Shown piece by piece: positions 4,046 to 32,785 of a DNA stretch of 34,632 bases. A model generated the notes under the pieces. It was not told where the DNA came from, searched no databases, and saw only the letters and a list, made by a program, of their open reading frames with translations. This DNA comes from a virus. The DNA is taken from the IMG/VR virus record IMGVR_UViG_3300031951_000646, positions 1 to 34,632 of that record. The stretch is one strand, 5' to 3'. Positions within the stretch are counted from its first letter, which is position 1; every line of letters starts with the position of its first letter. The translations under genes were made by a program, and so were the position numbers.

Positions 4046-4089
4046 CACCTTGAGGGGTGTGACAAACATAAAGAGACAGTTGAGGCTGT
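4046..4089 (+). promoter_or_regulatory. Twin mini-hairpins with identical TTGAGG loops before a fibre gene
   Basis: Two tiny stems, CACC/GGTG at 4046-4059 and ACAG/CTGT at 4076-4089, both enclose the loop TTGAGG. The second loop supplies the likely Shine-Dalgarno GAGG, eight bases before the ATG at 4094. Stems this short may be chance, but the identical loops suggest a translation-control site. Confidence 0.25.
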
Positions 4090-12234: not shown

Positions 12235-12251
12235 TCGGATAAGATTCAACA

Positions 12252-12878: not shown

Positions 12879-12886
12879 GAGCAGCA

Positions 12887-14790: not shown

Positions 14791-14977
14791 CTTTGCTAAA
14801 AAACAAGCAGTTGCATATCTTGAGCGCTCAATATCAACCCTTTCAAAAATACTTGGAGTTGATGCTTTTTCCTTGACTCACATACCAGTTGATGAATCAT
14901 CTGCGCTATATGACTCGTATTTTTGCTTAATGAACGAAGTTGCTGCATACAAAAAGTTGGTGGGCAATGCAGATTGA
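14783..14977 (+). CDS. Small protein of unknown function (64 aa)
   Basis: A short, mostly helical protein (MSDFAKKQAVAYLERSIS, then a second helix rich in Tyr and Leu). It has no motif I recognise and no membrane segment. The ATG overlaps the upstream stop (ATGAGTGA) and its own stop overlaps the next start by 11 bases, so it is embedded in the operon and is probably translated. It may be a small partner of a neighbouring enzyme. Confidence 0.5.
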   Translation: MSDFAKKQAVAYLERSISTLSKILGVDAFSLTHIPVDESSALYDSYFCLMNEVAAYKKLVGNAD

Positions 14978-15440
14978 GCCAATAATTGGAATTGACCCAG
15001 TTGATTTCAAATCTCGCGACACGCTAACAGTTAACTGGGACAAGCAGAATGAATCGTGGGTTGTTGACGGACAGCAGTCACATTGCCATTTGTACGGCGG
15101 TCCAGTCGGTCCGCTTCCAGTTGGCAACCGTATTTCATGGGATTCACCGCAGGACATTTCAAGACAAGACCCGTTATCAAGGTATAACGCCGACTTGGAT
15201 TTAGAATTCAATAAGGCCGAGTTTGTTGCGTATATGTATATTTTGGGTTTTTCTGATGAAGAAATTAGTCTCCTAACGATAGATGAAATAGTTGAAAAAA
15301 TACGGAATGTATACAGGTACAAGCACGGAACCCCATCAGACACGGCAAGCCAAACATTTATAAAGCGTAAAAATATTGCATTATTGCGAGGTGTTCGCAG
15401 AGCGCACCATAAAATTCAGGTGATTGAAAATGGAGCCTAA
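14967..15440 (+). CDS. Protein of unknown function (157 aa)
   Basis: The start at 14967 is chosen over an upstream TTG because it yields the usual short overlap with the preceding gene. The N-terminal half is strand-rich with L-T-V-N-W-D-K-Q-N-E-S-W-V-V-D-G (20-35) and a His/Cys-containing H-C-H-L-Y-G-G-P-V-G-P (39-49). The second half is helical and charged, ending R-R-A-H-H-K-I-Q-V. I do not recognise the family. The gene overlaps the next by 11 bases. Confidence 0.5.
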   Translation: MQIEPIIGIDPVDFKSRDTLTVNWDKQNESWVVDGQQSHCHLYGGPVGPLPVGNRISWDSPQDISRQDPLSRYNADLDLEFNKAEFVAYMYILGFSDEEISLLTIDEIVEKIRNVYRYKHGTPSDTASQTFIKRKNIALLRGVRRAHHKIQVIENGA

Positions 15441-16155
15441 TTACAACCTGGCACACCTGGCTGACATATTTTCTAACACCCAGAGCCACAAAGATGATTT
15501 TCCAGGAAAATATTATGGACATTCATCAAAACTCATGGCCGAGTTTGTTTCTGTGATTGATTTTGACAAGAGGAATGTAGCGACTGGCGGTGTTGACCTA
15601 GCGATATTTCCGTGGGAAATGTTTGAGGAAACAAATGAAAGGACATTTAGGACCTACACCATCTCTCAAATATTTCAAGATTTAATCTACGCTTTGAAAA
15701 GTCCATCAAGCGTACTCATATGCGGACCAGATTATTCAAGCACAAGAGTTGTCCAGTGTTGCGAAAACAACATCAAAACCACGCTGCTCAACAATATATC
15801 TTTGAGAAACTTTGAAAAATGTTTTACTTCAATAAATGAGAGATTTTCAAAACTGGAATATGAAGTCATATCAATGCAAGATGTCACCGAAGGGTGTAGC
15901 AAGAAATTTGATTTAATTGAGATTTGGGCAAACCAACTTGACATGCCACTATCTAACCCAGATTATTTCCTTAGGATGTTGACAGATGGTGGGTTGATGC
16001 TCATAAACGGCACATCTGATTGGGCATTTCTGTATGACAATGACATGTACGGACACCCAATGCACGACCTGCATGAAGAACTTAAAAACAACAGTTCGGT
16101 TTCAGTATTTCATATTCCACTTCATTACGGATTTACATTGGTTATAAAGAAATGA
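15430..16155 (+). CDS. Methyltransferase-like Rossmann protein, possibly degenerate
   Basis: A 241-residue protein; the ATG at 15430 is preferred to a TTG six bases earlier. From about residue 91, 'S-S-V-L-I-C-G-P-D-Y-S-S' looks like strand 1 plus the glycine loop of a class I SAM methyltransferase, but with a single Gly. K-F-D-L-I-E-I-W-A near 158-166 resembles the strand before the catalytic loop, and L-R-M-L-T-D-G-G-L-M-L-I-N-G (about 181-194) resembles the late strand of such enzymes. The SAM-binding acidic residue is not clear, so activity is uncertain. Its stop overlaps the next ATG (ATGA). Confidence 0.45.
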   Translation: MEPNYNLAHLADIFSNTQSHKDDFPGKYYGHSSKLMAEFVSVIDFDKRNVATGGVDLAIFPWEMFEETNERTFRTYTISQIFQDLIYALKSPSSVLICGPDYSSTRVVQCCENNIKTTLLNNISLRNFEKCFTSINERFSKLEYEVISMQDVTEGCSKKFDLIEIWANQLDMPLSNPDYFLRMLTDGGLMLINGTSDWAFLYDNDMYGHPMHDLHEELKNNSSVSVFHIPLHYGFTLVIKK

Positions 16156-16832
16156 AAGTAATTGACAATTTTATTACAAATGAATCGCTGCTAGAAGAAA
16201 TCCGAAACGATGAGAATTTCTTTCCGCAGACAATGGGTGATGAGCAAAAGGTGAATTATTCAATACACCAATATCATGACCAAGATTCAAAACATTATTC
16301 CCCATATATGTTTTGGGACGGTTGGTGGAGGTCTCCAGCAAATACACTCAAGAAGCGAGTAATACAGGAAATATGGAAAGACAATTTGCCCCTCCCGTAT
16401 GACCAGATATGCGGTTTTGAGTATTGGGCAAAAACATTTAAGCCAGGACAGTATCTAGGCTTGCATATTGATGAAGATTCTCACCTTTATAAAGAAAGTC
16501 AAATATTTAATGGGCCAACTATTGGTTGCGTTTACTACCCCGACCACGAGTCAATAGATGGTGGATTTTTGGAGTTGCATGAATTTTTGCTTGAAGACGG
16601 AAGCAAATCACAACTTGAGCGAGGGGTGCTTGAATCAATGGCTTCCCCCATTGAGAAACGGGAGAGGATTGCTTTTAAGCCAAACAGGTTGATTGTGTTT
16701 GACGCTGGGCACATCCTTCACAACACCACCCCAACGGAAAGCGGTACTCGCAGGGTGCTGGTGGTAAATGTCTGGTCTGAGGACAAAAAGCCACTAGGAT
16801 TGCAGAACAACGGGTTTTATTTGGAGAAATAA
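16152..16832 (+). CDS. 2-oxoglutarate/Fe(II) oxygenase (copy 4, divergent)
   Basis: A 226-residue oxygenase beginning M-K-V-I-D-N-F-I, a strand typical of the group. The ligands fit H105-x-D107 (LHIDED) and H190, with R200 ten residues later (H-N-T-T-P-T-E-S-G-T-R). H187 lies nearby and is an alternative ligand. Unlike the other copies it has an aromatic insert (Y-M-F-W-D-G-W-W-R, 52-60) and a long loop between the two motifs. This makes it closer to 2OG oxygenases acting on small molecules or peptides than to classical P4Hs. Four-base overlap with the upstream gene. Confidence 0.78.
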   Translation: MKVIDNFITNESLLEEIRNDENFFPQTMGDEQKVNYSIHQYHDQDSKHYSPYMFWDGWWRSPANTLKKRVIQEIWKDNLPLPYDQICGFEYWAKTFKPGQYLGLHIDEDSHLYKESQIFNGPTIGCVYYPDHESIDGGFLELHEFLLEDGSKSQLERGVLESMASPIEKRERIAFKPNRLIVFDAGHILHNTTPTESGTRRVLVVNVWSEDKKPLGLQNNGFYLEK

Positions 16833-17159
16833 GTGAACATTGACTACAACATAGAGCACAAAAGATACGCCCATAGTTTCATCGTAACGGTCAATACTCC
16901 GTTTGGGGACGAGGACTACCTGCTACTTGTAGATGATGTGTCCAATGAAGCAGAAATATCAACAAATAGAGGGAGTGTGAAATTCGCTTCATACTCTTTG
17001 ACCGACTCGTCATTTAGTGCGGATTTTAAAATTGATACTCCAATGACAGCATCTGTTTCGCTTGAATTTGGCAAAGATAGCAATTCTGATTTATTTTTTG
17101 GGACAGTAAGCGTGGGTGAGTTTGTTAAAACAACCCTTACAGCAAAGAGGCACCAATGA
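16833..17159 (+). CDS. Small beta-rich protein of unknown function (108 aa)
   Basis: It starts at a GTG directly after the previous stop with no gap, and its stop overlaps the following ATG (ATGA). The product has alternating hydrophobic strands (Y-L-L-L-V-D-D, K-F-A-S-Y-S-L-T) and ends G-T-V-S-V-G-E-F-V-K-T-T-L-T-A-K-R. That suggests a small beta-sandwich or lipocalin-like sheet. No Cys, no membrane segment, and no family I recognise. A GAGAAAT lies ahead of the GTG. It sits between an oxygenase and a peroxidase-like gene. Confidence 0.5.
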   Translation: MNIDYNIEHKRYAHSFIVTVNTPFGDEDYLLLVDDVSNEAEISTNRGSVKFASYSLTDSSFSADFKIDTPMTASVSLEFGKDSNSDLFFGTVSVGEFVKTTLTAKRHQ

Positions 17160-17770
17160 GTTTTGCGTATGACATGAACATATCCTCCCTTACTGGTGAG
17201 GAAAACCTGCTTGAATCCGTAAAGGGGAAAATTGCTCTGTTTGTGAATATTTCCTCCAAGTGTGGGTACGAGCCACAATGCAGCAGATTTTGGTCGCACG
17301 CGAGAACATCTCGCCAATTATGGGAATTACAGAAAGTGCACGACGAATTTAAAGATAGGGGATTTACCGTAGTCGGCTTCCCGTGCAACCAATTCGGCGG
17401 AATGGAGCCAGGAAGCAATGAAGAGATTGCTGCGTTTATTGCTGAAAATTATCCGTTTGTAACATTTCCAATCACGGAAAAGATTGATGTAAACGGACCA
17501 AATGAGCACCCAATTTACACATACCTTAAAGGTCCAGAGTTGCGTAATTCAAGCGACAACCTTGCCGACACATCGGACTCTGCACAGCGAGGTCAGAACA
17601 AGGCAATGCAAGCGATGATGCGCATTCCACATAATTGGGAGAAATTTTTGCTAAGTCGCGACGGCGTATTCATTTCTCGCTTTAACTGGCAAGATTGGCC
17701 ACTGGCAGATAAGCCACTTGTCCATGGAGCAGCCTGGACAATCAGGGAAGCAATAGACGCGGTTTTGTAA
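17156..17770 (+). CDS. Glutathione-peroxidase-like protein with altered catalytic residues
   Basis: A 204-residue protein of the thioredoxin fold. Family landmarks are N-I-S-S-K-C36-G-Y, G-F-P-C77-N-Q-F-G-G (74-82) and F-P-I-T-E-K-I-D-V-N-G-P-N (104-116). GPx enzymes reduce hydroperoxides with a Cys or Sec, assisted by Gln, Trp and Asn. Here the Cys is kept (TGT codon, no selenocysteine). The Gln position after F-G-G is Met83, and the Trp-Asn-Phe site reads His159-Asn160-Trp161. There is also an insert of about a dozen residues after the active Cys (from C42 to about Q54). It may detoxify peroxide made by uncoupled oxygenases nearby, or it may be a thiol-disulfide enzyme. Four-base overlap with the upstream gene. 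Confidence 0.82.
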   Translation: MSFAYDMNISSLTGEENLLESVKGKIALFVNISSKCGYEPQCSRFWSHARTSRQLWELQKVHDEFKDRGFTVVGFPCNQFGGMEPGSNEEIAAFIAENYPFVTFPITEKIDVNGPNEHPIYTYLKGPELRNSSDNLADTSDSAQRGQNKAMQAMMRIPHNWEKFLLSRDGVFISRFNWQDWPLADKPLVHGAAWTIREAIDAVL

Positions 17771-17771
17771 G

Positions 17772-18692
17772 ATGGATATTGAGAATCTCGGCGGAGGAGT
17801 TCTCGTCTTTAGGAATGTGGTTGAAGTGGACCACGACTTCATAATTCCATATTTGGCAGAACTTCACGAAAAAGTTGTAGAACAAGATTTTACAATCATC
17901 CACGATGAAAGCGGCAATGCTCTACATGCCATAAATCGTTCTGGACATAGATACCCATTAGAGGATATTTATCGTGTTAACAGAATTACTGGATTTGCCC
18001 CAGACGACAGAACAGATGAAAAGCATATATTTTTTGATAAATGCGAAGATGCCGTATATTCATGTTTAATTAGATATGTAGAGCATTTCCCAATGATTCT
18101 TCCGTCTCTATGGTGGAGAACGCACGGCCATGTTGTCGCTTACAGGAGTGGTTCGGACATGGGTTTTCACTCAGATAACGATGTCAATTATCAACCTGGA
18201 GCGGTGCCAGACATGCAAGTCGCTACAAGGCATGTTGTCGGCTCAATATTGTACTTAAATGACTCCGCTAACTCTTCTGAAGAATGCGGTGATTACGAAT
18301 ATGTTGGTGGGGAACTTGAGTTCCCTTATCTTGGCATTTGCTACAAGCCAAAGTCTGGTGACATCATTATGTTTCCGTCAAATTACATGGGTACGCATAG
18401 GGTAAAAGAACTTCATAGTGGTTCAAGGTATGCATACATATCATATTTTTCGCATGGCTCCGAGGATGTGAAGAGGGGTATTTGTCCATCCGATTCTGGC
18501 GCACTTAAACTAAAGTCATCTCAAGTTTGGATACCAGAAGTTTTTGACGACTATTCCACTTATATAAATAGCAAATACAACTCCGATTCTGATAAATATA
18601 AAATGCTAACATTGCCATTAAATCGCATAAACAACAGCAGTGGTACCACTCAAGAATTAATCCAGGAAAGAAACAAAGATGATTTACAATGA
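17772..18692 (+). CDS. 2-oxoglutarate/Fe(II) oxygenase, long P4H-like family A (copy 5)
   Basis: A 306-residue oxygenase and the first of four tandem relatives. The N-terminus has the shared 'L-G-G-G-V-L-V-F-R-N' strand (6-15). S-L-W-W-R-T-H-G-H at 112-120 precedes the iron motif H133-x-D135 (FHSDND). The distal ligand is H209 and the co-substrate residue R219. The family loop is E-L-E-F-P-Y-L-G-I (181-189) and S-G-D-I-I-M-F-P-S-N precedes the distal His. About 80 extra residues follow the core. It is closest to the minus-strand gene at 22456-23445. All catalytic residues are present. Confidence 0.85.
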   Translation: MDIENLGGGVLVFRNVVEVDHDFIIPYLAELHEKVVEQDFTIIHDESGNALHAINRSGHRYPLEDIYRVNRITGFAPDDRTDEKHIFFDKCEDAVYSCLIRYVEHFPMILPSLWWRTHGHVVAYRSGSDMGFHSDNDVNYQPGAVPDMQVATRHVVGSILYLNDSANSSEECGDYEYVGGELEFPYLGICYKPKSGDIIMFPSNYMGTHRVKELHSGSRYAYISYFSHGSEDVKRGICPSDSGALKLKSSQVWIPEVFDDYSTYINSKYNSDSDKYKMLTLPLNRINNSSGTTQELIQERNKDDLQ

Positions 18693-19539
18693 TGTCGCTC
18701 CCGAGCACCTCGGCGGCGGTGTAATCGTATTCAGAGATGCGATAACATTTGATTTTGACTGGGCATGCGAATTTGCAGAAAATGCAGTATCGGCTGAACG
18801 CAACGACATGTACAAAGAGGCAATTGACCCAGAGTCGGGCAGGCCTGGATTTTTAAATAAAAGTGGATATTTTTTTGATTATGAAGACACGATGAATATG
18901 CCTCGTCGCGGTGCTTCAATACACAGAAGCGAGCAGGCAGATGTTATTGAGTTTTTAAAATTTCTTGAAAATTCTCGCGATAAGTATCTGCTTAAGTATC
19001 TAGTTGAGTTTCCACTGGCTTACAAAAATATCTGGTGGAAGGTAAAAGGCCATCTGGTTGCATACTCAATAGAGCATGGAGGCCGCCTACTGGGTCCCCA
19101 CTCAGATACGAGTGCCGACTATTCATATGGTTTTGGCGAGCCGACAGACCAACTAGCAACCAGGAATACGCTTACTGCACTTATTTACTTTAATAACGGT
19201 TTTTCTGGTGGTGCGCATTACTTTAATTATCTAGATATCCGCTACACGCCAAATCCTGGCGATATTTTAATGTTCCCGTCAAATTTTATGGCTGCGCATG
19301 AGATTGAACCAATAACTGCAGGAAACAGGTACACATATCTAGGCTGGTACGCGCACGGTTCACCCAATCCTGCAGTAAACGAATTCATTGCTGACCCAAT
19401 CACTCAGCCAGAACTTGCTGCAGTTTCAACCAATGTGTATCTCCCCACATTGCGTGAAGACTTTAGAAACCATCTAATCAACTGCGGTGTTGACAAAAGT
19501 TCTCCAGCGTGGCATTTAGTAGAAAGTATGCACTCATGA
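18679..19539 (+). CDS. 2-oxoglutarate/Fe(II) oxygenase, long P4H-like family A (copy 6)
   Basis: A 286-residue paralogue of the preceding gene, overlapping it by 14 bases. It repeats the N-terminal strand (L-G-G-G-V-I-V-F-R-D, 11-20) and N-I-W-W-K-V-K-G-H (117-125). The iron motif is H141-x-D143 (GPHSDTS), the distal ligand H207, and the co-substrate residue R217. The C-terminal extension is shorter than in copy 5. Its stop overlaps the next start (ATGA). The tandem arrangement points to gene duplication within the phage lineage. Confidence 0.85.
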   Translation: MIYNDVAPEHLGGGVIVFRDAITFDFDWACEFAENAVSAERNDMYKEAIDPESGRPGFLNKSGYFFDYEDTMNMPRRGASIHRSEQADVIEFLKFLENSRDKYLLKYLVEFPLAYKNIWWKVKGHLVAYSIEHGGRLLGPHSDTSADYSYGFGEPTDQLATRNTLTALIYFNNGFSGGAHYFNYLDIRYTPNPGDILMFPSNFMAAHEIEPITAGNRYTYLGWYAHGSPNPAVNEFIADPITQPELAAVSTNVYLPTLREDFRNHLINCGVDKSSPAWHLVESMHS

Positions 19540-20294
19540 TTAGGTATCACCTTGGGTGCGGAATTGTTCTGATTCGTGGACTTATTGGCGCTGATGAAAT
19601 TGAAACTTACGACATTTCGTTGATAGAACAGAACATAACCCCACAAGGCTTCACTAAAAAAGATGGCAAACTTTATACCGCTGGTGGATATGAGTACAAC
19701 GAAGAGATTGATTCAAAAACATATCCTGTGCGATATGCTGAAAACATAGATTCTCTTGAATTTACAAAAATCATTTCTGAAAAAATTTATCAATCAGTTG
19801 TTGATTATTGCAAAGTTTTCCCTGCGGTTGTTGAATGCATAACCGAACATAAACAACTCCACTACATAAAGTATGCCCAAAATACTGGGATGGGACCACA
19901 TTCAGATTGCTCAGCATCCTACAAGAACAACTCTGTTGAGTTAATTTCGTCTTCTGCAATTGATAATACTCTGAGCACTTCAATTGTCTTGAATAGTGAT
20001 TTCACTGGTGGCAAATTTAGATTTACCGTTATTGATGAGGAACTTGACCTTCGCGCTGGTGACGCTCTGATTTATCCTTCAAATTTTGTTGGTAGCCATG
20101 AAGTTAAACAAATTACATCTGGAACAAGATGGGCTTTTTTGTCTTTCTTTTCACATGCGCGCTCACATTTTGATGGGCAAGATGATTTGGACAAAAAGAA
20201 TTTGTGGTTAAAAAAATTTCGTTCAGACATTGGTGTAGAGGATACAAAAGTTGCTAATAACTTTCAGAAAAAAGTAGAAGTTGGTGAATTATGA
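19536..20294 (+). CDS. 2-oxoglutarate/Fe(II) oxygenase, shortened family A (copy 7)
   Basis: A 252-residue paralogue. The ATG at 19536 overlaps the upstream stop (ATGA) and is chosen over a TTG at 19509. It keeps the N-terminal strand (L-G-C-G-I-V-L-I-R-G, 6-15), the iron motif H122-x-D124 (GPHSDCS), distal H188 and R198. The Trp-Trp-Lys segment of copies 5 and 6 has become E-H-K-Q-L-H-Y. The C-terminal tail is short. It is most like the next gene, which suggests a recent duplication of that pair. Confidence 0.83.
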   Translation: MIRYHLGCGIVLIRGLIGADEIETYDISLIEQNITPQGFTKKDGKLYTAGGYEYNEEIDSKTYPVRYAENIDSLEFTKIISEKIYQSVVDYCKVFPAVVECITEHKQLHYIKYAQNTGMGPHSDCSASYKNNSVELISSSAIDNTLSTSIVLNSDFTGGKFRFTVIDEELDLRAGDALIYPSNFVGSHEVKQITSGTRWAFLSFFSHARSHFDGQDDLDKKNLWLKKFRSDIGVEDTKVANNFQKKVEVGEL

Positions 20295-21031
20295 TTATCA
20301 CACACATGGGTAACGCCATAGTCAAATTTGATAATGCATTTACTGTTGACCCAGAATATTTTAAGAAATTCACAAATAGCCTAGAATCAACCATTGACAA
20401 TGGTGATTCAAATAAACAAATTGAAAATACCCGCACAGAAGGTGGGTATGAAATACCACGGGAACATGCAAACGAATCACCAATCAGATACACAAATCTG
20501 CATTCACTAAATGAAGAAAACGCAAACTTTTTAAAATATCTGCAAGACTCAATTCATAAATGCATGGTTGAATATTGCAAAATTTTTCCAGTAGTCGTAG
20601 AAAATGTCAGATGGGTTACTAATGGGTATGTAATCAAATACGAAAATGGACAATGTATTGGCCCACACTCTGATTGCAATATCGCATACGCGGATGATGG
20701 CGTAACAATTTTGAACAGTATCCCCATTTACAATATTCTGACTGCTGGAGCATTTTTGAATGACGACTTTGAAGGTGGACAGATATCATGGCGAATATGG
20801 GGAATAAATAGCAAGCCAAAAGTTGGTTCGGTTTTTATATACCCATCGTCTTTTGTCGGATGCCATGAGGTCGCCCCAGTTACACAGGGGACAAGGTACG
20901 CCTATCTCAGGTGGTATGGACACGGCGAACCTGAATTTAATCCAGCGGAAAGTGTGATGCACTTGCTTGAAGACATCAAAGCCAAGAACACTCAACAGAA
21001 ATTTGTTCCAGTTGGGGTTATTTCCAATTAA
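20291..21031 (+). CDS. 2-oxoglutarate/Fe(II) oxygenase, shortened family A (copy 8)
   Basis: A 246-residue paralogue and the last gene of the plus-strand operon. The iron ligands are H126-x-D128 (GPHSDCN) and H192, with R202 as co-substrate residue. F-L-N-D-D-F-E-G-G-Q at 155-164 is the family loop. It shares the 'S-I-H-K-C-M-V-E-Y-C-K-I-F-P' helix (87-100) with copy 7 (S-V-V-D-Y-C-K-V-F-P). It overlaps copy 7 by four bases. Its stop codon overlaps the stop of the facing minus-strand oxygenase, so no independent terminator fits between the two operons. Confidence 0.83.
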   Translation: MIITHMGNAIVKFDNAFTVDPEYFKKFTNSLESTIDNGDSNKQIENTRTEGGYEIPREHANESPIRYTNLHSLNEENANFLKYLQDSIHKCMVEYCKIFPVVVENVRWVTNGYVIKYENGQCIGPHSDCNIAYADDGVTILNSIPIYNILTAGAFLNDDFEGGQISWRIWGINSKPKVGSVFIYPSSFVGCHEVAPVTQGTRYAYLRWYGHGEPEFNPAESVMHLLEDIKAKNTQQKFVPVGVISN

Positions 21032-21657
21032 ACAATCGGATGGTAACTTTGCCAATTCGCATAATCCATGCTGTTCCATTTTTCAACAACCCAAAATGTG
21101 CTTGTTACGAGGCGATTGCCAGATGTTATTTGTTTCACTCCATGGCCAAAATTTGCCCCAGACGGGAATATCAATAGCGTCCCAGCCTTTGGTTTGAACT
21201 CAATGCCATATTGATAAAAATATATTTCTCCACCCTCGTACGAGTCGTTGAAATAGAGAACATTGCTTAGGTCGCGCCAGGATTCGCACACCTTGTCCGC
21301 ATGAGGGTTGAGTAATGTTCCTGGCGTGTAACGAGAAATACTTGAAATTTCCGAATAACCAGAATTGATGTTTATTTTACAGTCGTATGTTTCCTCTAAA
21401 AGTTTACATATTTTGTCCCTATATGAACGAAGAATCTTGGTTATTTCGGTTTCGTAATTTTTTACAACGGTCGGTATGTAATCAATGAGGATTAATGGAT
21501 TTGATTCAATGTGTTCAGCGGTTAGACAAAATTCATTTATTTTAACCAAATCTTCTTCAGAAATAAAATTCTCATGAACATGAATGTGTTTTTTGTCCTC
21601 GGAATTTATTCTTACTTCTTCCCATCCGTCGTAGATGTAGTTGTCCATATTTTTCAT
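21028..21657 (-). CDS. 2-oxoglutarate/Fe(II) oxygenase, P4H-like (copy 9)
   Basis: A 209-residue single-domain oxygenase, the last gene of the minus-strand operon. The iron motif is H119-x-D121 (NPHADKV), the distal ligand H172 and the co-substrate residue R182. Y-F-N-D-S-Y-E-G-G-E-I at 135-145 is the family loop. The N-terminal half includes H-V-H-E-N-F-I-S-E-E-D-L, a strand-helix start typical of P4H-like enzymes. It resembles copy 2 more than the family A genes. The ATG overlaps the upstream stop (ATGA). Confidence 0.85.
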   Translation of the reverse strand: MKNMDNYIYDGWEEVRINSEDKKHIHVHENFISEEDLVKINEFCLTAEHIESNPLILIDYIPTVVKNYETEITKILRSYRDKICKLLEETYDCKININSGYSEISSISRYTPGTLLNPHADKVCESWRDLSNVLYFNDSYEGGEIYFYQYGIEFKPKAGTLLIFPSGANFGHGVKQITSGNRLVTSTFWVVEKWNSMDYANWQSYHPIV

Positions 21658-22451
21658 AAAGCAATTGTTTCTACTTCAGATTTACCAATTTCAATCTTGT
21701 CGTAAATTCTCTGGCTGCGAGCAAATCCACCCATAACAGAATGAGCAACGCATCTGTTGTCCCAGACAACAAGGTCGTTTTCTGACCAACTAACTTCAAT
21801 CTGATTATCTGGCATATCAAATATGTTCAATAAACTCAATTTGTAGGCATTCCATTTATCGTAATCTTTTCCAATCGTATTTTGCCCATTGTAGAAAATA
21901 GAAAGGTTTTTTGTTACTGGATGGACCCTTATTGATGGATGCGCATATTCTGGTTTTCTGTATGCTGGAAACTCATTACTGTCGGCATTCCATCCTGGAG
22001 ACTTTATTCTATAAATAAAATCTATGTGTTCCTTTTCAAGACAATCATATGCGCGCTCTAGGTCAACAAACCGTGTATTGCCGCCCTCTGGGGACGGAGT
22101 TCTCATGTGCATGCAACTTATATCAACAACATGCTCTTCCCATGAACCATCAACATGCCATCTATCAACGCCCCATCTAGAAAAATATTCATTGCTTGAT
22201 GGCAAGGGCTTTTTGTTTGATTCAAAAAAATCAAAAAGTGGCTCGCTTGAACGACCAGCATCAATCATCAAATAATTATGATTACTATGAATTTTTTTTA
22301 AAAATTCAATTACATCTGGCACAGAAATATCCGCATTTTTGAAAATTAAAACTTTTCTTAAAACCAAATCATTTTTGATTGATTCAATATTTCGTTCAAT
22401 TGAGTTAACATCAAAATTTATATAGGTTTTACCAAATATTGGGCCGCTCAT
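21654..22451 (-). CDS. TauD/TfdA-type 2-oxoglutarate dioxygenase
   Basis: A 265-residue protein from the ATG at 22451; a TTG six codons earlier would overlap the upstream gene. It belongs to the TauD branch, not the P4H branch. W-H99-V-D101-G-S-W carries the first two iron ligands. E-G-G-N-T-R-F-V-D-L-E-R-A-Y (122-135) is the classic TauD segment, then H-P-V-T-K at 177-181. Distal H237 (R-C-V-A-H-S) is followed by R248, which fits the co-substrate Arg. TauD relatives oxidise small molecules such as taurine, carnitine precursors or amino acids, so it may act on a free or carrier-bound substrate rather than a fibre. Confidence 0.88.
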   Translation of the reverse strand: MSGPIFGKTYINFDVNSIERNIESIKNDLVLRKVLIFKNADISVPDVIEFLKKIHSNHNYLMIDAGRSSEPLFDFFESNKKPLPSSNEYFSRWGVDRWHVDGSWEEHVVDISCMHMRTPSPEGGNTRFVDLERAYDCLEKEHIDFIYRIKSPGWNADSNEFPAYRKPEYAHPSIRVHPVTKNLSIFYNGQNTIGKDYDKWNAYKLSLLNIFDMPDNQIEVSWSENDLVVWDNRCVAHSVMGGFARSQRIYDKIEIGKSEVETIAL

Positions 22452-22455
22452 GACA

Positions 22456-23445
22456 TCAGTCTTTCGCAATTTCTTTTGCAGTATGGGTTCCCCCGTATTG
22501 CGTCACGCATCTGTTTTGGAATACTGGGTTGGAGCCAACCTCAAGACCTTCAACTGGCTTCATCCATCGCGAGTAATCGGATTTGCAGTAACGCTCATAG
22601 TCGTCGTAAATTTCATCAAACCAAACTGGCGGACACCACTCGTTTGAATCTTTGCTCTCAGCAATCCTGATATTTGCCGCCTCGTCATCGGCACCCTGGC
22701 CAAAGAATGTGAGGTACGCATAGCGAGTGCCGCCTTCCATTTTTGTTACCCCATGAGCGCATATGTAGTTCGTGGGGAAGAATATGATGTCGCCCTTTTG
22801 CGGCTTGTACTCAATGCCCAAGTATGGAAACTTAAGCGTTCCGCCGCAGAAGTTCTCTCCATCAAGTTCCTCTGCAGTCTCAACATGGTCGTTAAAGTAC
22901 GCCAATGCACCAGCCGTCTGCCTTGATGCGACCATGCCTTTTGGCATGTAACGGACCCCACCAGTAACCTTGTAATTCGTATCGTTATCTTGATGCCAAC
23001 CAAGAACTCCTTGTCCGTGGTAGCGAAGAATGTGTCCACGAGTTTTCCACCAAAGGCTTCCAACAATTAGCGGGAACATGTCTATGTATCTAATTAGACA
23101 CTTGTAAATCGTGTCTTCAAGATATACGAAATAGTCAAGGATTTCCTTTTGTGTATTTTCATCTACTGGAGCGAGAAGGCGAACTGGCGCGGCAGGGACA
23201 TCTTCCATCCTGTACCTGAATCCATCTTCATTAATCCCATACTGAACACCATCTTCACCAATGACATACGACCATCTGCCCTTATGCGCTTCTTCTGCGC
23301 AGTCGTCAATATGGGATAAAACAAATTTCTCCACATTGAAAACATTCTTAAATACGACAAGCCCGTTTCCAAGGTCTTCAAATTGAAATTGGCTAATTTC
23401 AAGAAGTTCCTTGTCGCCTATTTTTGGTGTTGATGGTAGTGCCAT
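22456..23445 (-). CDS. 2-oxoglutarate/Fe(II) oxygenase, long P4H-like family A (copy 10)
   Basis: A 329-residue oxygenase, the minus-strand relative of the plus-strand gene at 17772. Shared features are L-G-N-G-L-V-V-F-K-N (25-34), the 'Y-K-C-L-I-R-Y-I-D-M-F-P-L-I' helix (114-127) and S-L-W-W-K-T-R-G-H (130-138). The iron ligands are H151-x-D153 (GWHQDND) and H231, with R241. L-K-F-P-Y-L-G-I-E-Y-K-P (204-215) matches copy 5 nearly residue for residue. The C-terminal extension of about 80 residues is rich in Trp, Tyr and Asp, as in copy 5. A hairpin lies just upstream of the start. Confidence 0.87.
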   Translation of the reverse strand: MALPSTPKIGDKELLEISQFQFEDLGNGLVVFKNVFNVEKFVLSHIDDCAEEAHKGRWSYVIGEDGVQYGINEDGFRYRMEDVPAAPVRLLAPVDENTQKEILDYFVYLEDTIYKCLIRYIDMFPLIVGSLWWKTRGHILRYHGQGVLGWHQDNDTNYKVTGGVRYMPKGMVASRQTAGALAYFNDHVETAEELDGENFCGGTLKFPYLGIEYKPQKGDIIFFPTNYICAHGVTKMEGGTRYAYLTFFGQGADDEAANIRIAESKDSNEWCPPVWFDEIYDDYERYCKSDYSRWMKPVEGLEVGSNPVFQNRCVTQYGGTHTAKEIAKD

Positions 23446-25929: not shown

Positions 25930-26484
25930 TTAGCAGGATGGTCCCTGACAGTTGTTGCCATAGACCGTTCCTTCACCACATCCCGAACGGTTACATGTGG
26001 TAGTTACGAATGTTTGAACACAGTTTGCGGTTCCAGGACATCCAGTATGCGTGTATCCAGAAGTCTGGGTGCATGAACATGGCTCCAAGGTGGTAGTAAA
26101 ATTAGGTGGCGGAGCAGTCGTAAATGACGGCGGTGCAGCGGTGGTTGTGGTGGTTGTCGTAGTCGTAGTCGTGGTTGTGGTCGGAGCAACTGGAGTCACT
26201 GAACTTGAGGCCGAAGATGTTGCACTTACACCGTATCCACTATTAGCCGTAACGGTAAATGTATAGGCTGTTCCATTGGTGAGTCCATTCACGGTAAGTG
26301 GCGAAGAACTACCAGTCGCTGTAATGCTTCCAGGACTTGATGTGGCTGTATATGAAGCCGTGCCCTTGCCGTCGTAAGCCGATGCGGTGAATGAAACCGT
26401 GGCTGAAGCGTTGCCAGCAACCGCGCTTACGCTAGTTGGGGCATTAATAAACTTCCCCGCGCTGGAGGTGTTTCCTTTAATCAC
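25930..26484 (-). CDS. Surface protein: Fn3-like domain, poly-Thr linker and Cys-rich tail
   Basis: A 184-residue protein starting at a GTG that overlaps the upstream stop (GTGA). Residues about 14-99 form one Fn3/Ig-like domain with G-L-T-N-G-T-A-Y-T-F-T-V, very like those in the 230-residue protein at 10837. Next come 14 consecutive Thr (about 102-115) and a Pro/Thr stretch. The last ~50 residues hold eight Cys in C-x-C, G-C, N-C spacing, probably four disulfides or a metal site. Thr-rich linkers are favoured O-glycosylation sites. With a glycosyltransferase in the same operon, this protein is a candidate acceptor; that is inference. Confidence 0.7.
   Translation of the reverse strand: MIKGNTSSAGKFINAPTSVSAVAGNASATVSFTASAYDGKGTASYTATSSPGSITATGSSSPLTVNGLTNGTAYTFTVTANSGYGVSATSSASSSVTPVAPTTTTTTTTTTTTTTAAPPSFTTAPPPNFTTTLEPCSCTQTSGYTHTGCPGTANCVQTFVTTTCNRSGCGEGTVYGNNCQGPSC
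26140..26181 (-). repeat. Run of 14 Thr codons
   Basis: Fourteen consecutive ACN codons with mixed third bases. The codon mixing argues against simple DNA slippage and for selection on the Thr tract. It lies between the Fn3-like domain and the Cys-rich tail. Confidence 0.9.
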
Positions 26485-27260
26485 GAGGCGCTCAAGTCAC
26501 CAATCAGGTACCACTCGTCTGTACCGCGCTTGATAAGCGTTGCCGATGAATATCGGTCTCTTAAGAACAACCCTGGAGTCGCACGAACAGTCACCCCAGA
26601 ACCAGCAGCAATTTGAGTTTTTCCGCTTCCGTACTGAATGACGGTGATTTCTGAACCAATAGCGAAGTTTGCGGTTGAACTTGGAGGAACTGTTACCGCG
26701 TTCGCTGAACTTGAATTCATTTCAATTATTTTTGTTTTGTCAGAAAGAATCAGCGTGTAGTCAGAAGTTTTTGTTGAAATTGCCACATTGGCCAATTTTG
26801 AAAGCGCAATTTCTGCAGAAGCATTGATATCTGCGTCAACGACAACACCAGTTGATATTGCGGTCACGCCAGCATCGGTTACGGAGATGTCTCCAGTAAT
26901 TGATGTATATGTTGCTACGCCAGAAGCATTTGCCAAAACAACATTTCCAGCAGTTCCTGATGCCAGTTTTGACAGAGCGATAGCAGCATTTGCAGCAACT
27001 TCAGTGTTGGTTACTTCTCCAGCCTCAATCTGAGCACCAACTTCTTCCCAGGCACTTCCGTTATAAAAGTACAACTTGTTGGCTGAATCAAGGTAACTAA
27101 ACATCCCCTCTGCGAGCGTCACTCCAGCAGAAGAGTATGCGGCAGACCTGGCTGTTGCGTCAGCAAAACGATGGATTGTTTGGTCCATCAGGTATGTGTT
27201 TACTTGTGCTGCAGTTAACACCGCTCCAGTAGAGAAAAGTTTGATTCCAGCGCCAGCCAT
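26481..27260 (-). CDS. Fibre-type protein with shared C-terminal cassette (259 aa)
   Basis: The ATG at 27260 has GGAG eight bases upstream and is preferred to a farther in-frame codon. It opens M-A-G-A-G-I-K-L-F-S-T-G-A-V-L-T-A-A-Q-V, then 'A-T-A-R-S-A-A-Y' and 'Y-F-Y-N-G-S-A-W' (75-82), common in phage head-fibre and tail-fibre proteins. The C-terminal ~92 residues are the cassette shared with the 911- and 884-residue fibres. It is the first gene of the minus-strand operon. This places the modification genes downstream of a virion gene on both strands. Confidence 0.75.
   Translation of the reverse strand: MAGAGIKLFSTGAVLTAAQVNTYLMDQTIHRFADATARSAAYSSAGVTLAEGMFSYLDSANKLYFYNGSAWEEVGAQIEAGEVTNTEVAANAAIALSKLASGTAGNVVLANASGVATYTSITGDISVTDAGVTAISTGVVVDADINASAEIALSKLANVAISTKTSDYTLILSDKTKIIEMNSSSANAVTVPPSSTANFAIGSEITVIQYGSGKTQIAAGSGVTVRATPGLFLRDRYSSATLIKRGTDEWYLIGDLSAS
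26484..26762 (-). repeat. C-terminal fibre cassette, copy 3
   Basis: It encodes about 92 residues starting DYTLILSD and ending IGDLSAS. It is homologous to the cassettes at 7711-7989 and 10555-10830 but on the opposite strand. Confidence 0.8.
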
Positions 27261-27335
27261 TGAAACTCCAGTTTGTAAGTGTGGTTCCAACAATAATACA
27301 TCACTTGATTGGGCTTAGAAACAATGGTGTTGTAG

Positions 27336-27341
27336 TAAAAT
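27336..27341 (+). promoter_or_regulatory. Candidate -10 element in the divergent gap 27261-27366
   Basis: This 106-base gap separates the two divergent operons and must hold promoters for both. TAAAAT at 27336-27341, 25 bases before the ATG of the large secreted protein, repeats the hexamer of three other gaps. On the minus strand TATTAT (27298-27293) is a possible -10 for the other operon. GGGGG lies just before the ATG at 27367 as a Shine-Dalgarno sequence. Confidence 0.35.
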
Positions 27342-27366
27342 TTAATGTCCATTTACTGGGGGTCAT

Positions 27367-30300
27367 ATGCGTTTTAAATTGAACACCAGGATTGCTCGCA
27401 TACAACTTGCTGCGCTTTTGCCAATTTCAATGCTGTCAATGTTTATGACAATACCCACAGCGCATGCAACTTTTTCAACCAATACTCAAATATCAAACAG
27501 CCAAGGATTCTTGCAAGGACAATTCGCTGAAGTAGGCGTAAGAGCCAACGGAGCATTCGGCTCCACAAGCGTTCCGTCTGGATTCAATCAAAACCCAGCA
27601 AACTGTCTTGGCTTTCGCGTTGACAGAGAAATGGATGGCTGGGGAACCACAACAGATGACGGCGACTATTTCTGTCCAGGCTCACCGTTTGAGGGCTGGC
27701 AGGTAAAAGTCGGCTCAAGTATTGGTAAAAACGACAACGGTCAAACAGGTGTTGCTGGCACAGTATCCGACATTCAGAACTCTGGTTCTTCCCAGTGTGT
27801 TTCATGGAATAGTGCAAGTCCATACAACGGTGTGAGCATCTCTCAGAGATACTGCGTGCCCACAGCAGGGCAGGCGCTTCATACTGATGTAACACTCACA
27901 AACACGACTGGCTCTGCTATTTCCAATGTCTTCTTTGGTCGTGGCTTTGACCCAGATAACGCAACTGGTTCTGGCTCAATGACATGTGCTGGAACCACTG
28001 GTAATACAACAACTTTCCAATCATGCAACGCCGTGACTGGGCAAGGAGCAGAGGCGCAAGCAACAGCACGGTGGGGAAATGGTTCATTTATCGCTCTCCA
28101 GTCATTTGACGCTCGTGCTCGTGTGGCTAGACAAACTGGTGGATTTTCCTCTCCAGACCCTGCTGACATTTGGAATGCTGGAAACTCACTCGCAACCAGT
28201 GGGGCATATCTTGGCAACATCGGAGAAATATTTGCTGATGCTGGAATCTATGTGGCATTGAATGTTCCAACGCTTGGCGCTGGTGCTTCTACTTCTTTCC
28301 GTATTAGTTATGTTCTTTCCGCTGAAGGAAATAACGCCCCAGTTCTTGGAGCGCCAGTCGTTAGCGGAGTAGGTCAAACCTCAGCAACTGTCGCATCAAC
28401 TGTAAATCCGAAGGGCTTCTCAACTACTGCGACACTGGTCTATTCAACTGACCCAGATTTTGGCACTTCAAGTTCTGTATCAATGGGAACTTTTACAGGT
28501 TCTGACGAACTATCCATTGATGCTGAAATCACAGGTCTTGACCCAAGCGAAACCTACTACGCAAAGATTGTTGCAACTAACGAGACTGGTGAAACAGAAT
28601 CCGCAGTATTTGACTTTGACACTCTTTCAGCAACAGCGCCAACTATTTCCTCAGAGGCACCAACAGTCACTGTTGATGACGGCCCTGTAACACTGACTGG
28701 AACGGTTAATCCAAACGGTTTCAGCGCTACGGCAGTATTCCAGTACAGCACCACATCAGACTTCTCTGGAACAATAGTTGATGTTCCAGTTGCTGGAAAC
28801 TTGACTGGAACATCAGACACAAGTGTTTCCACGACTGTTTCTGGTCTGACTGGCTCAACCACTTATTACTATCGCCTAAAAGTAACCAATGCTTCTGGAA
28901 CGGCATACAGCCCAACTGTTTCTTTTGTACCTAACGATATTCCTGCCCCAACATCGTTGGTAGTAACAAGCCTTGAAGATACGACTGCAAACGGAACTCT
29001 TCGTTGGGCAATCACGCAGGCAAATGCCACTGCTGGCGGGATATACGACTCAATCACATTTAGTGTTGATGGAACAATAACTCTTACTAGTGCTCTGCCC
29101 CAGATAACTCAAAATGTGACAATTACTGGTAACGGCAGAACTCAAACCATCATTGATGGAAACAACCTGTACCGCATATTCAATGTTCCATCTGGCAGAA
29201 GCCTGATTGTCTCTAACATGACCCTAAAACAAGGGCAAAATGTTTACGGTGGTCTTATCTACAACTCACAGGGAACGGTTGTTGCAACAAATATCAGATT
29301 TACAGCGATGACTGGCGGTAGCGCTGTTTGGAATAATGCTGCTGGCTCAACAGCAACATACACCAACTGTACATTTGACTACCTAAGTATTGGTATTGGT
29401 GGAGACCATGGCTCAACTCCACAACTTCCTGCTGGAGTCACAACATGGGCAGACCAAACGGATTCTGCTTTCCAAAACAAAACATATGTAGATAATTGCG
29501 TATTTAGTAATAATAGTTCTGGTATCAACACCCAGCGCTTTACAAAAGTGCAGAACTCAACATTTACAAATAACTCTTATGCAGTAAACATCCAAGGACT
29601 AAATCGTGGGCAGGTTCTAAATTCCACATTTACGAACAATGGAATTGGTGTTTATCACAACGGCTGGATTCCACCGACTTTCAACATGGGAACCGACAAC
29701 CGTCTCATTAGTGGCAATACATTCACAACAAATGCAATCGCTATTTACCTTGATGACACATACAACAACGGTCAAAAGAACCAAAGTTGGTCAACTGTAA
29801 CTGGCAACTCATGGGACGCTTCAGGTGTTTGGATTCGTCATTACCAGTGGAATGGAACTTCACAAGTTGAAGGAACTGCTCGCCCATATACAACTGGAAC
29901 AGTGTTTACACAAAGTGCCAATACATTTCCAGACACGATTGGCGCACCATCTAATTTAACTGCAACTGATACTGGTTCTGGAATCCTGCTTGATTGGGAC
30001 GCTCCAACATCTGGCGGATACCTTCCTGAGCGTTATGCAATTGGTTGGTCTGGGAGTCTTGGTGGCGGCGGAATCGCGACAGGAAATGTTGGTGGCGCGA
30101 ATGCCTTAAATACATCTATTGAAATACCTTACTCAACCATATATTCATTTGGTGAACCAGGAGAAACATTCCCGTTCTACATTCGTTCCGATAACGACAC
30201 ATTCTCAAAGTATTCAGTTAATTCAAACACTGTGTCTATTCAGGTTGGTGTTTCTTCAAGCACTACGACCACCAGCAGTTCAGTGCCAGCAAGTAGTTCA

Positions 30301-31602
30301 ATCCCTACAAGTACTTCAACAACACCAACGACGGAAGCACCGACAGAATCCACAGAGCCAGTGGTAGTTGTCGTCCCTGTATCGCCTGAGCCAGCGACCA
30401 CAGTCCCAGAAGACACCACCCCAGAAACAGTAGAGACGCTGCCTGAAGAAACAGCAACAGAAGAGACACTGCCAGATACGACAGATGAAACAGTGCCATC
30501 AGAAACAGAAACGGAAACAGAATCAGGTCCATCAGAAGAGTCTACCCCTGAATCAGAAGAAGTTTTAATCATCATTGACAGCCTCCCAGACGACGCTTCT
30601 GCAGAGGAAATGGCAGATGCTGTGTTTGAAGCCATAGATGGCGCTTCGGCAGAAGAGGTAGGAGCCGTTCTTGAAGCGGTATTTGATGATGCAACTTCTG
30701 AAGAGGTGGTGGCAATTCTGTCTGCTGTCTTTGAAGATGCTTCACCATCTGAAGTTGTTGCAATCCTTTCCGAAACATTTGCCGATGGGGCCACCGACGA
30801 GGAAGTCGCTGCTGTTACCGAAGCACTTCTTTCAGACGGAGTAACGGAAGAAGCGGTATCAATGCTTATTGATGTTCTTGATAGCGGAGTTATTGACGAG
30901 TCTCAAGTTGAGGCAGTAGTTGATGCAATCCTTGAAGAGGAAATAAGCGACGAAGTTGCTACAGAACTCGCCACGAGTGCTGCGGTTATCCAAAACATCA
31001 GCGCTGAGCAAGCAACTGAAATTTTTGCATCCGTACCAGTAGAGGAACTTTCTTTAACCGAGGCAGCGGCAATCGTTGACGCCGTGCAGGACGCCCCTAC
31101 TGAGGTGCGAGAATCATTTGAGGAAGAGATAAATGTGTTCGCTGGGGTGTTTGACAACTATGTGGCGACTGGCTCAACCATTGATGTTGGGACTAGAAGA
31201 AGCGTAATTGCGGTAAACTTAGTAACTAATACAGTTGCGCTGGCTGCCGCCGCAGGCGGTATCCCTGGCTCGTCGTCTAGTCCTACTCCTTCCGCGAAGC
31301 AAGACATTGCCGCTCGGAAAGAAGAGGAGGAGGAAGAGGGTGGCGCGATTGAGGGTGAAGGCCCTGATTGGATAAAAGCCATATCTATTTACAAGTTAAA
31401 AGATGGAGTGAAAGTAATGGACTGGATGAATTTTATTAAGAAGTTCTGGTATGGAATTTTGAGTTCTGGCTTCACGCTTGCTGGCGCAACCGTGATGTAC
31501 TTCACCCTTTCAGGAATAACTCAACAAATCGCCCTCTGGGGAACTGTTCTGGCATTTGCAGGTTCTATGTACCTTCACATGAAAGAACCAGACTCAGAAT
31601 AG
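27367..31602 (+). CDS. Large secreted or surface protein (1411 aa) with signal peptide and beta-helix
   Basis: Residues 1-34 are a signal peptide (basic start, hydrophobic core, A-H-A cleavage). Then come an N-terminal beta domain (~35-320), two Fn3-like domains (~325-525) and a right-handed beta-helix-type region (~528-855) that begins with 'N-G-T-L-R-W-A-I-T-Q-A-N-A'. A third Fn3-like domain (~858-960), a Ser/Thr/Pro/Glu linker (~963-1065) and seven or more 16-17-residue acidic helical repeats (~1077-1195) follow. Two C-terminal membrane segments (~1362-1404) close the chain. The plan mirrors actinobacterial cell-surface proteins. In a phage it could remodel the infected cell surface or form part of the virion. 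It lies just ahead of the lysis genes. Confidence 0.75.
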   Translation: MRFKLNTRIARIQLAALLPISMLSMFMTIPTAHATFSTNTQISNSQGFLQGQFAEVGVRANGAFGSTSVPSGFNQNPANCLGFRVDREMDGWGTTTDDGDYFCPGSPFEGWQVKVGSSIGKNDNGQTGVAGTVSDIQNSGSSQCVSWNSASPYNGVSISQRYCVPTAGQALHTDVTLTNTTGSAISNVFFGRGFDPDNATGSGSMTCAGTTGNTTTFQSCNAVTGQGAEAQATARWGNGSFIALQSFDARARVARQTGGFSSPDPADIWNAGNSLATSGAYLGNIGEIFADAGIYVALNVPTLGAGASTSFRISYVLSAEGNNAPVLGAPVVSGVGQTSATVASTVNPKGFSTTATLVYSTDPDFGTSSSVSMGTFTGSDELSIDAEITGLDPSETYYAKIVATNETGETESAVFDFDTLSATAPTISSEAPTVTVDDGPVTLTGTVNPNGFSATAVFQYSTTSDFSGTIVDVPVAGNLTGTSDTSVSTTVSGLTGSTTYYYRLKVTNASGTAYSPTVSFVPNDIPAPTSLVVTSLEDTTANGTLRWAITQANATAGGIYDSITFSVDGTITLTSALPQITQNVTITGNGRTQTIIDGNNLYRIFNVPSGRSLIVSNMTLKQGQNVYGGLIYNSQGTVVATNIRFTAMTGGSAVWNNAAGSTATYTNCTFDYLSIGIGGDHGSTPQLPAGVTTWADQTDSAFQNKTYVDNCVFSNNSSGINTQRFTKVQNSTFTNNSYAVNIQGLNRGQVLNSTFTNNGIGVYHNGWIPPTFNMGTDNRLISGNTFTTNAIAIYLDDTYNNGQKNQSWSTVTGNSWDASGVWIRHYQWNGTSQVEGTARPYTTGTVFTQSANTFPDTIGAPSNLTATDTGSGILLDWDAPTSGGYLPERYAIGWSGSLGGGGIATGNVGGANALNTSIEIPYSTIYSFGEPGETFPFYIRSDNDTFSKYSVNSNTVSIQVGVSSSTTTTSSSVPASSSIPTSTSTTPTTEAPTESTEPVVVVVPVSPEPATTVPEDTTPETVETLPEETATEETLPDTTDETVPSETETETESGPSEESTPESEEVLIIIDSLPDDASAEEMADAVFEAIDGASAEEVGAVLEAVFDDATSEEVVAILSAVFEDASPSEVVAILSETFADGATDEEVAAVTEALLSDGVTEEAVSMLIDVLDSGVIDESQVEAVVDAILEEEISDEVATELATSAAVIQNISAEQATEIFASVPVEELSLTEAAAIVDAVQDAPTEVRESFEEEINVFAGVFDNYVATGSTIDVGTRRSVIAVNLVTNTVALAAAAGGIPGSSSSPTPSAKQDIAARKEEEEEEGGAIEGEGPDWIKAISIYKLKDGVKVMDWMNFIKKFWYGILSSGFTLAGATVMYFTLSGITQQIALWGTVLAFAGSMYLHMKEPDSE
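30595..30957 (+). repeat. Acidic helical repeats, unit 16-17 residues
   Basis: At least seven degenerate units of the form A-x-x-E-E-V-x-A-I/V-L-x-x-V-F-x-D/E. They lie between the low-complexity linker and the C-terminal membrane region of the large secreted protein. Confidence 0.7.
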
Positions 31603-31686: not shown

Positions 31687-32523
31687 ATGAGTAAGAAACT
31701 TGCATGGGATTACATTGTTCCAGTAGTTCTTCCAAAAGACCTTAAAGGAATTGAGCCAGGAAAACTTCCTGCAAACCTTCTAAGGGCTGTACCTGGTGGC
31801 GGGAAAATGCACTGGATTGCTGCATCTGCTTGGACGGCCATGGTTGAAAAAGCAAAGGCTGAAGGCGTTGAACTAAAACCGACTTCCAGCGGCGACACAT
31901 ACCGCGATTACGAGAGCCAGAAAAAAGGATTCCTAACCCGCTACACACTTGACAAAGTGGAAGGCACCAGCACAAAAACATTTGAGGGCAAGACTTGGTA
32001 TCTCAAAAAGGGTATGGCGATGCTCGCCACGCCTGGAAAGTCGCAGCATAACCTCGGCTTGGCTGTTGATGTTCATTCAGCATCTGAGCCAAAGCGTCTC
32101 AACTGGCTTGTTGAAAATGTCAAAGAATTTGGCTTTTCATGGGAAGTTGTTCCGTCAGAGCCTTGGCACCTTCGCTATGTTTGCGGAGATAATGTCCCAG
32201 CATCAGTGAAGGCATGGATGGACGCAAACGGAGTTTCTGCACCAGCAGCAGTTGCAGTCAAAGAAGATGCACCGAAGCCTGCCCCTAAAGCCGCTCCAGC
32301 AGCCCCTAAAGCCGCTCCTAAAGCCGCTCCAGCAGCGCCTGCAGGGGATGCAAAGATTCGTAGCATCCAAGAAGCGCTAAAGGCTCGTGGCGCGTATCCA
32401 GGAGCAATTACTGGCGTAATGGACGACATGACCAAGGGTGCAATTAAAGCATTCAAGGTTGCAAACAAACTTCCTGCAGACCATGTCCCTGGCCCTCAAG
32501 TAATGAAATTGCTCGGTCTATAA
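31687..32523 (+). CDS. Endolysin: M15 (VanY-type) peptidase plus peptidoglycan-binding domain
   Basis: A 278-residue wall-degrading enzyme. The M15 zinc site is visible as S-Q-H121-N-L-G-L-A-V-D128 and E158-P-W-H161; the three metal ligands are H121, D128 and H161, with E158 as the catalytic base. This family cleaves D-Ala-containing or L-Ala-D-Glu peptide bonds in peptidoglycan stems. Residues 196-219 are an Ala/Pro/Lys linker of repeated K-A-A-P units. Residues ~223-278 are a peptidoglycan_binding_1 domain (I-Q-E-A-L-K-A-R-G, then F-K-V-A-N-K-L). No signal peptide, so it depends on a holin. The neighbours at 32525 and the distant gene at 1579 are candidates. Confidence 0.9.
   Translation: MSKKLAWDYIVPVVLPKDLKGIEPGKLPANLLRAVPGGGKMHWIAASAWTAMVEKAKAEGVELKPTSSGDTYRDYESQKKGFLTRYTLDKVEGTSTKTFEGKTWYLKKGMAMLATPGKSQHNLGLAVDVHSASEPKRLNWLVENVKEFGFSWEVVPSEPWHLRYVCGDNVPASVKAWMDANGVSAPAAVAVKEDAPKPAPKAAPAAPKAAPKAAPAAPAGDAKIRSIQEALKARGAYPGAITGVMDDMTKGAIKAFKVANKLPADHVPGPQVMKLLGL
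32272..32343 (+). repeat. Ala/Pro/Lys linker repeats in the endolysin
   Basis: Imperfect repeats of the codons cct-aaa-gcc-gct-cca-gca encode a flexible linker between the peptidase and the wall-binding domain. Confidence 0.75.
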
Positions 32524-32524
32524 A

Positions 32525-32785
32525 TTGGACGCAACATGGGCAGCCGTTGTAACTGGAGCATTTGGCTTGCTCATGTTATTGATTGAAAAGGGTCGCAGAG
32601 AAAATAATCGCGACCACGGATTCGTAAGAGACCGACTTGATGCAATCAAAGAAGATATTGCAGACCTTGACACCGACATAAGTGTCATAGAGGCTAAAAT
32701 AGATACACATATCCTTGACCATTCAGTAGGCGCTGTTGAGCAACATGATGCTCCAGAACGCAAGAAGCCGAGTAAGAAGAAATAA
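32525..32785 (+). CDS. Membrane-anchored coiled-coil protein, candidate second holin or spanin-like
   Basis: An 86-residue protein. The start is a TTG two bases after the endolysin stop; no ATG lies before the membrane segment, so this start is likely but unproven. Residues ~4-20 are a single hydrophobic segment (WAAVVTGAFGLLMLLI). They are followed by R-D-H-G-F-V-R-D-R-L-D and a charged heptad-like coiled coil (~30-65), then a Lys-rich end. Actinophage lysis cassettes often carry such a one-helix protein with 'D-H-G-x-V-R-x-x-L' after the lysin. Its exact lysis role is inferred from position. Confidence 0.6.
   Translation: MDATWAAVVTGAFGLLMLLIEKGRRENNRDHGFVRDRLDAIKEDIADLDTDISVIEAKIDTHILDHSVGAVEQHDAPERKKPSKKK

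Follow-up and report, generated by a model that had tools for sequence, protein, structure and literature searches.

A putative surface adhesin encoded beside the lysis genes of actinobacterial phages

The modification of a host's surface by phage-encoded products is already known as a kind of phage activity, and several described systems come close to the gene considered here. This gene occupies positions 27367-31602 on the plus strand of IMG/VR record IMGVR_UViG_3300031951_000646. The whole length of 34,632 nucleotides (nt), a complete virus record in the form of a linear fragment, was analysed and is called the window below. The open reading frame (ORF) starts with ATG and encodes 1411 amino acids (aa), exactly the coordinates and length given in a preliminary description of the same DNA. 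We read its product as an adhesin that the phage encodes, makes with its lysis genes, and displays on the infected actinobacterium, and we give this reading a probability of roughly 0.6.

One close comparison is with the curli (type VIII secretion) genes of pelagiphages and OM43 phages (PMC7029224, PMC9599517, PMC9004378), since these are also phage genes for adhesive material at the surface of abundant aquatic hosts, and on curli-bearing phage contigs there is a protein that shares the head domain of the one described here. In contrast to phage curli, the present gene specifies one multidomain protein, predicted to be Sec-exported and anchored in the membrane of a Gram-positive host, with no fibre-secretion channel. 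The Llp protein of phage T5 (PMC9586334) is likewise an exported phage product at the host surface, and the two may share an anti-adsorption role on infected cells and debris. Llp, however, is a small outer-membrane lipoprotein, whereas the 1411-residue protein has no lipobox, carries shuffled heads, and uses another anchor. The serine-rich-repeat adhesins, such as the serine-rich repeat protein (SRRP) of L. reuteri (5ny0), also combine a signal peptide, a beta-helical binding region, and a Ser/Thr-rich stalk, but the protein studied here lacks LPXTG, has a membrane module in place of the sortase anchor, and is encoded by a phage. Finally, the ConA-like lectins of Patescibacteriota phages (PMC12911398) are phage-encoded and have been proposed to raise the adhesion of the host surface; they are described as auxiliary genes, and the architecture, lysis linkage, and head exchange reported below are not part of that description. 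In the literature searched, no description was found of this architecture, of its lysis linkage, of the head exchange, or of the reuse of the head with the anchors of other hosts, and the freshwater-phage literature searched held no report of the protein family.

Architecture and family

The protein is laid out as follows.

27367..27468, plus strand: Sec signal peptide (residues 1-34), predicted cleavage AHA^TF, no lipobox Cys
27469..28320, plus strand: distal head domain (residues 35-318), six Cys invariant among relatives
28321..28941, plus strand: two fibronectin type III (Fn3)-like domains (residues 319-525)
28942..29931, plus strand: right-handed parallel beta-helix (residues 526-855), an optional module within the family
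29932..30240, plus strand: third Fn3-like domain (residues 856-958)
30241..30552, plus strand: Ser/Thr/Pro/Glu linker, presumed stalk (residues 959-1062)
30553..31197, plus strand: acidic helical repeats (units of about 16 residues) and a conserved membrane-proximal segment ending IDVGxRR (residues 1063-1277)
31198..31263, plus strand: first predicted membrane segment (residues 1278-1299)
31264..31425, plus strand: charged loop with RKEEEEEE and a beta-hairpin, presumed cytoplasmic (residues 1300-1353)
31426..31581, plus strand: conserved C-terminal membrane hairpin (residues 1354-1405), motif GFT.aG....yfTLSG

The signal peptide, MRFKLNTRIARIQLAALLPISMLSMFMTIPTAHA^TF, was judged by a rule asking for a net positive n-region, an uncharged hydrophobic core, and A/V/S-x-A. 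This rule is satisfied by 56 of the 58 N-terminally complete homologues, the remaining two being signal-peptide-like by eye, and by none of the 38 other proteins of the window, which upholds the Sec signal peptide of the preliminary description. In three sister contigs (76-100 kb, with 78-92 ORFs each), the homologue is the sole protein longer than 200 aa that passes. An Llp-type lipoprotein anchor was dropped because no lipobox Cys follows the signal peptide (the first Cys is residue 80), and a sortase anchor because no LPXTG-type motif was matched in the protein. The six head Cys are all invariant across 12 relatives, as is expected of a disulphide-bonded domain outside the cytoplasm.

Searches of Pfam, PHROGs, and NCBIfam over the whole protein gave sub-threshold matches or none. 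The Fn3-like domains are so named because their fold matches tandem Fn3 (Foldseek E 4.5e-8; VIA Z 11-13) but the Pfam fn3 score (PF00041) is below the gathering cut-off (18.3 vs 25 bits). The beta-helix (model residues 501-821) aligns with 8wm1, a DHS dehydratase (VIA Z 20.1, root-mean-square deviation 3.2, 251 aligned); pectate lyases also match it (Z 13), and the SRRP binding region 5ny0 matches the structure at E 0.003. The linker is 58% Ser/Thr/Pro and 21% Asp/Glu, the helical repeat is 27% Asp/Glu, and the mature protein has an isoelectric point of 4.05. Composition and structural matches together bear out the beta-helix, Fn3-like domains, Ser/Thr/Glu linker, and acidic repeats named in the preliminary description. 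Its C-terminal membrane segments are upheld too, and there are probably three of them, beyond the two at the extreme C-terminus: AlphaFold predicts three helices, the hydropathy of which is modest in this protein (peaks 1.62, 1.32, and 1.17) and 1.8-2.5 in the homologues. The C-terminal module contains 39 invariant columns. Foldseek found no significant match for it, which leaves the fold unmatched and excludes nothing; the C-terminus is modelled as helical with membrane helices, not as the outer-membrane beta-barrel of a type V autotransporter.

A scan of IMG/VR with query P0001 gave 47 loci. With the C-terminal module as query, 441 related stretches were found and 80 of them retained. The family is marked by the signal peptide and the conserved C-terminal membrane module (A1), both of which the 1411-residue protein has, and by a single copy per phage; 21 of 23 records hold one C-terminal module, contigs of 138-177 kb included. 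WhiB, an actinobacterial regulator, is present in 22 of 36 records, which identifies the phages of the family as actinophages. For one named relative, DSL-LC01, the predicted host is Actinomycetia (PMC10611076); its hypothetical protein WJZ48438.1 is a direct homologue with the same C-terminal module and was deposited without a function. The same is true of A0A6J5P167, a "Fibronectin type III" entry from an uncultured Caudovirales phage that is 86% identical over the ectodomain.

The preliminary description had suggested that the protein is host-derived and had called for a search for host homologues. Two scans of 84,980 species genomes, which need near-exact peptide patterns and could miss distant host homologues, returned a single relative, and it sits on a contig with phage gene order. 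The family therefore looks phage-borne, and the proposed host origin finds no support. The contig in question (L050, JAURLY010000091.1) comes from a metagenome-assembled genome labelled Gammaproteobacteria; it carries the same C-terminal module and the phage order of VanY, membrane-protein, and winged helix-turn-helix genes, and is probably a mis-binned actinophage contig.

Link to the lysis genes

Two genes follow in the window.

31687..32523, plus strand: VanY-type endolysin with a peptidoglycan-binding domain, next gene in the presumed operon
32525..32785, plus strand: small protein with an N-terminal membrane segment (phrog_32850), holin-like by position only

In the main lineages, 56 of 57 distinct loci have a VanY endolysin gene downstream in the same orientation; these 56 are all the loci with at least 500 nt of downstream sequence, and the one exception has 325 nt. 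The gap is mostly 60-100 nt, in some cases about 1 kb or 3.3-3.7 kb, and in DSL-LC01 the VanY gene lies about 9 kb downstream. In the window it is 84 nt, with no plus-strand terminator-like site listed, by a promoter/terminator scan that performed at chance level. In a second clade, the endolysin homologue is upstream on the same strand (L012, L022, L023, L033, L039, L040, and L041) or is not found within the 6-kb flanks (L007-L009). Two members of this clade have unusually long ORFs with a VanY-lysin-like part directly upstream of the homologue (L023, 622 aa at 4080; L040, 757 aa at 3666).

The divergent neighbours of the gene encode a fibre-like protein and an Fn3/poly-Thr protein. At 25930-26484 of the window, an Fn3 domain (above the Pfam cut-off) is followed by poly-Thr and then by a Cys-rich tail, adjoining an N-acetylglucosamine transferase and a radical SAM/SPASM gene. 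Elsewhere in the window, an Fn3-like protein with terminal tandem (F/Y)PPF repeats (10837-11529) directly precedes a run of 2OG-Fe(II) oxygenases (11572-23445) and is a candidate substrate for proline hydroxylation. The suggestion of the preliminary description that modification enzymes might act on the 1411-residue protein itself finds no support.

Head exchange and use of the head by other phages

Among the complete proteins of the family, eight types of head and eight of C-terminus can be told apart, and these are mutually shuffled. One relative (L033) has an L-type lectin head (PF18483, E 1.1e-39) and another a PA14 head (E 8.9e-6), both above the Pfam cut-off. Exchange can be followed in single pairs of loci. 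In L012 and L041, 5 kb of sequence ending with the signal peptide are 98% identical, the region after it is unrelated, and similarity returns in the C-terminal part at 94% identity, while L002 and L003 share 91% nucleotide identity over the mature gene between unrelated flanks. The breakpoints are clean, both at the signal peptide and ahead of the C-terminal module. In a set of 44 loci after dereplication, 33% of the pairs whose lysins are at least 85% identical have matching head types, compared with 25% (standard deviation 5%) after shuffling (p 0.09). Lysin identity is tracked by C-terminal identity (r 0.54) and hardly by head identity (r 0.19). The distribution of head types over phage lineages is close to random.

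Sister phages G010 and G023 are 91-98% identical over about 65 kb. Homology is lost between them in several larger patches, namely an uncharacterised stretch (4436-5797), a tail-fibre region, a sugar-gene patch, and the ectodomain of the protein studied here. The same patches differ between G009 and G023, in which the tail-fibre gene (G009 26167-29544, G023 120153-121817) keeps its N-terminus and has its C-terminal part replaced, and the sugar-gene patch upstream of the adhesin-like gene differs. Head and tail fibre co-vary in these two sister pairs. Strict coupling is not claimed, since G009 and G010 have different fibres and the same head type.

A profile search with the head uncovered distant relatives on further phage contigs. 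In the 642-kb phage LR756502 (L149, 4010-6703), a signal peptide and the head domain (hhalign against the present head: 253 columns, E 2e-12) are followed by a CHU_C type IX secretion domain (E 7e-17). In L190-L204, a signal peptide and the head domain (hhalign E 1.2e-8) are followed by a C-terminal region ending in phenylalanine, which in L191 is an autotransporter barrel (PF03797, E 2.7e-19). Several of these relatives share an operon with CsgF, CsgG, and curlin repeats, on contigs where phage genes for ribonucleotide reductase and exonuclease are also present. Such clusters of phage curli genes (CsgF, CsgG, curlin repeats, FecR) lie at L194 6428-11345, L190 4096-6920, and L191 1089-4438, and include a protein that joins the head domain to a C-terminal barrel. 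One could tentatively consider a general strategy of re-dressing the infected cell, timed with lysis, a possibility to which we give somewhat less than even odds. Phages of unrelated hosts would have one recognition domain in common and attach it to whichever display system the envelope of the host allows: actinobacteria would call for a membrane module, Bacteroidota for type IX sorting, and proteobacteria for an outer-membrane barrel with curli genes.

Proposed role and its alternatives

The architecture, the family, the gene order, the head exchange, and a head domain common to other displayed phage proteins can be read from the sequences. We infer export by the host, an outside-facing topology, late synthesis, and binding to glycans or surfaces. 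The host Sec machinery would export the protein, the C-terminal module would hold it in the cytoplasmic membrane, and the acidic helical repeat and the Ser/Thr/Glu stalk would span the cell wall. The Fn3, beta-helix, and head part would then lie outside and bind surface glycans or proteins of the host species. The protein would probably be made late, from an operon that also makes the endolysin, and its binding part would be swapped between phages as receptor-binding fibres are. With such a protein predicted to be exported and made beside the genes that burst the cell, these phages probably re-dress the host surface late in infection. The preliminary description had likewise seen a surface-protein-like layout and suggested display during infection, and the adhesin-like architecture and the lysis linkage support this.

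If the protein is an adhesin, two consequences stand at equal weight, each a little short of even. It may mask receptors and thereby keep new virions from adhering to the spent cell or to its debris, a logic stated for T5 Llp (PMC9586334), or it may tether uninfected neighbours near the burst, as in the "sibling capture" proposed for pelagiphage curli (PMC7029224). A smaller share is left to some other consequence.

Several observations weigh against the adhesin. The head is modelled poorly, with a predicted local distance difference test score of 20-50 across much of residues 35-318. It has no recognised lectin fold of its own, and PF18483 is unmatched in the protein. A plain anchor would not need a C-terminal module as conserved as this one. 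Cells infected by a phage with curli pore genes showed no clumping (PMC9004378). A divergent copy of the head domain occurs on a subtilase (Peptidase_S8; L188 4849-7236) that lacks an obvious signal peptide, which means that displayed proteins are not the only ones to carry the domain.

The over-conserved module, with its 39 invariant columns, and its position next to the small membrane protein and the endolysin make a sensor of lysis timing the main rival. Here the ectodomain would sense a superinfecting phage or the state of the cell surface, and the membrane module would control the neighbouring holin-like protein, much as the T4 holin is controlled by the secreted antiholin RI. T4 RI is exported, has a cleavable signal peptide, and is linked to superinfection (PMC8385771). 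Such a role is unlikely, given that the size of the protein and its shuffled, lectin-type heads are unlike known antiholins and that the second clade has its lysin upstream or beyond the 6-kb flanks.

The other explanations are more doubtful still. The DHS dehydratase and pectate lyase matches of the beta-helix, together with the lysis-operon position, would suit a factor that degrades capsule or wall polysaccharide from outside and frees the virions at lysis, but three relatives (L102, L121, and L128) keep the other parts without a recognisable beta-helix, and no catalytic residues were identified, which makes this improbable. Fn3 and beta-helix domains are frequent in virion proteins, and the gene adjoins fibre genes; an ordinary virion or tail-fibre protein with a merely signal-peptide-like N-terminus is nevertheless quite improbable in view of the conserved signal peptide, of a kind found in no other protein of the window, the invariant Cys, and the C-terminal membrane module. 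Least probable is a surface protein taken from the host and carried as a passenger to the host's benefit. Its layout does resemble that of bacterial surface adhesins, as the match to 5ny0 illustrates, but the two genome scans, which need near-exact peptide patterns, gave no cellular relative apart from the phage-like contig, and the gene is single-copy in conserved phage synteny.

Freshwater actinobacteria are among the most abundant bacteria of lakes, and their phages are poorly understood. If the adhesin reading is true, a widespread, single-copy, hypervariable surface protein in these phages would make the question of "sibling capture versus superinfection exclusion," so far raised for marine curli phages only, testable in a one-gene system. 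It would also be a second recombination hotspot, beside the tail fibre, in the arms races between phages and their hosts.

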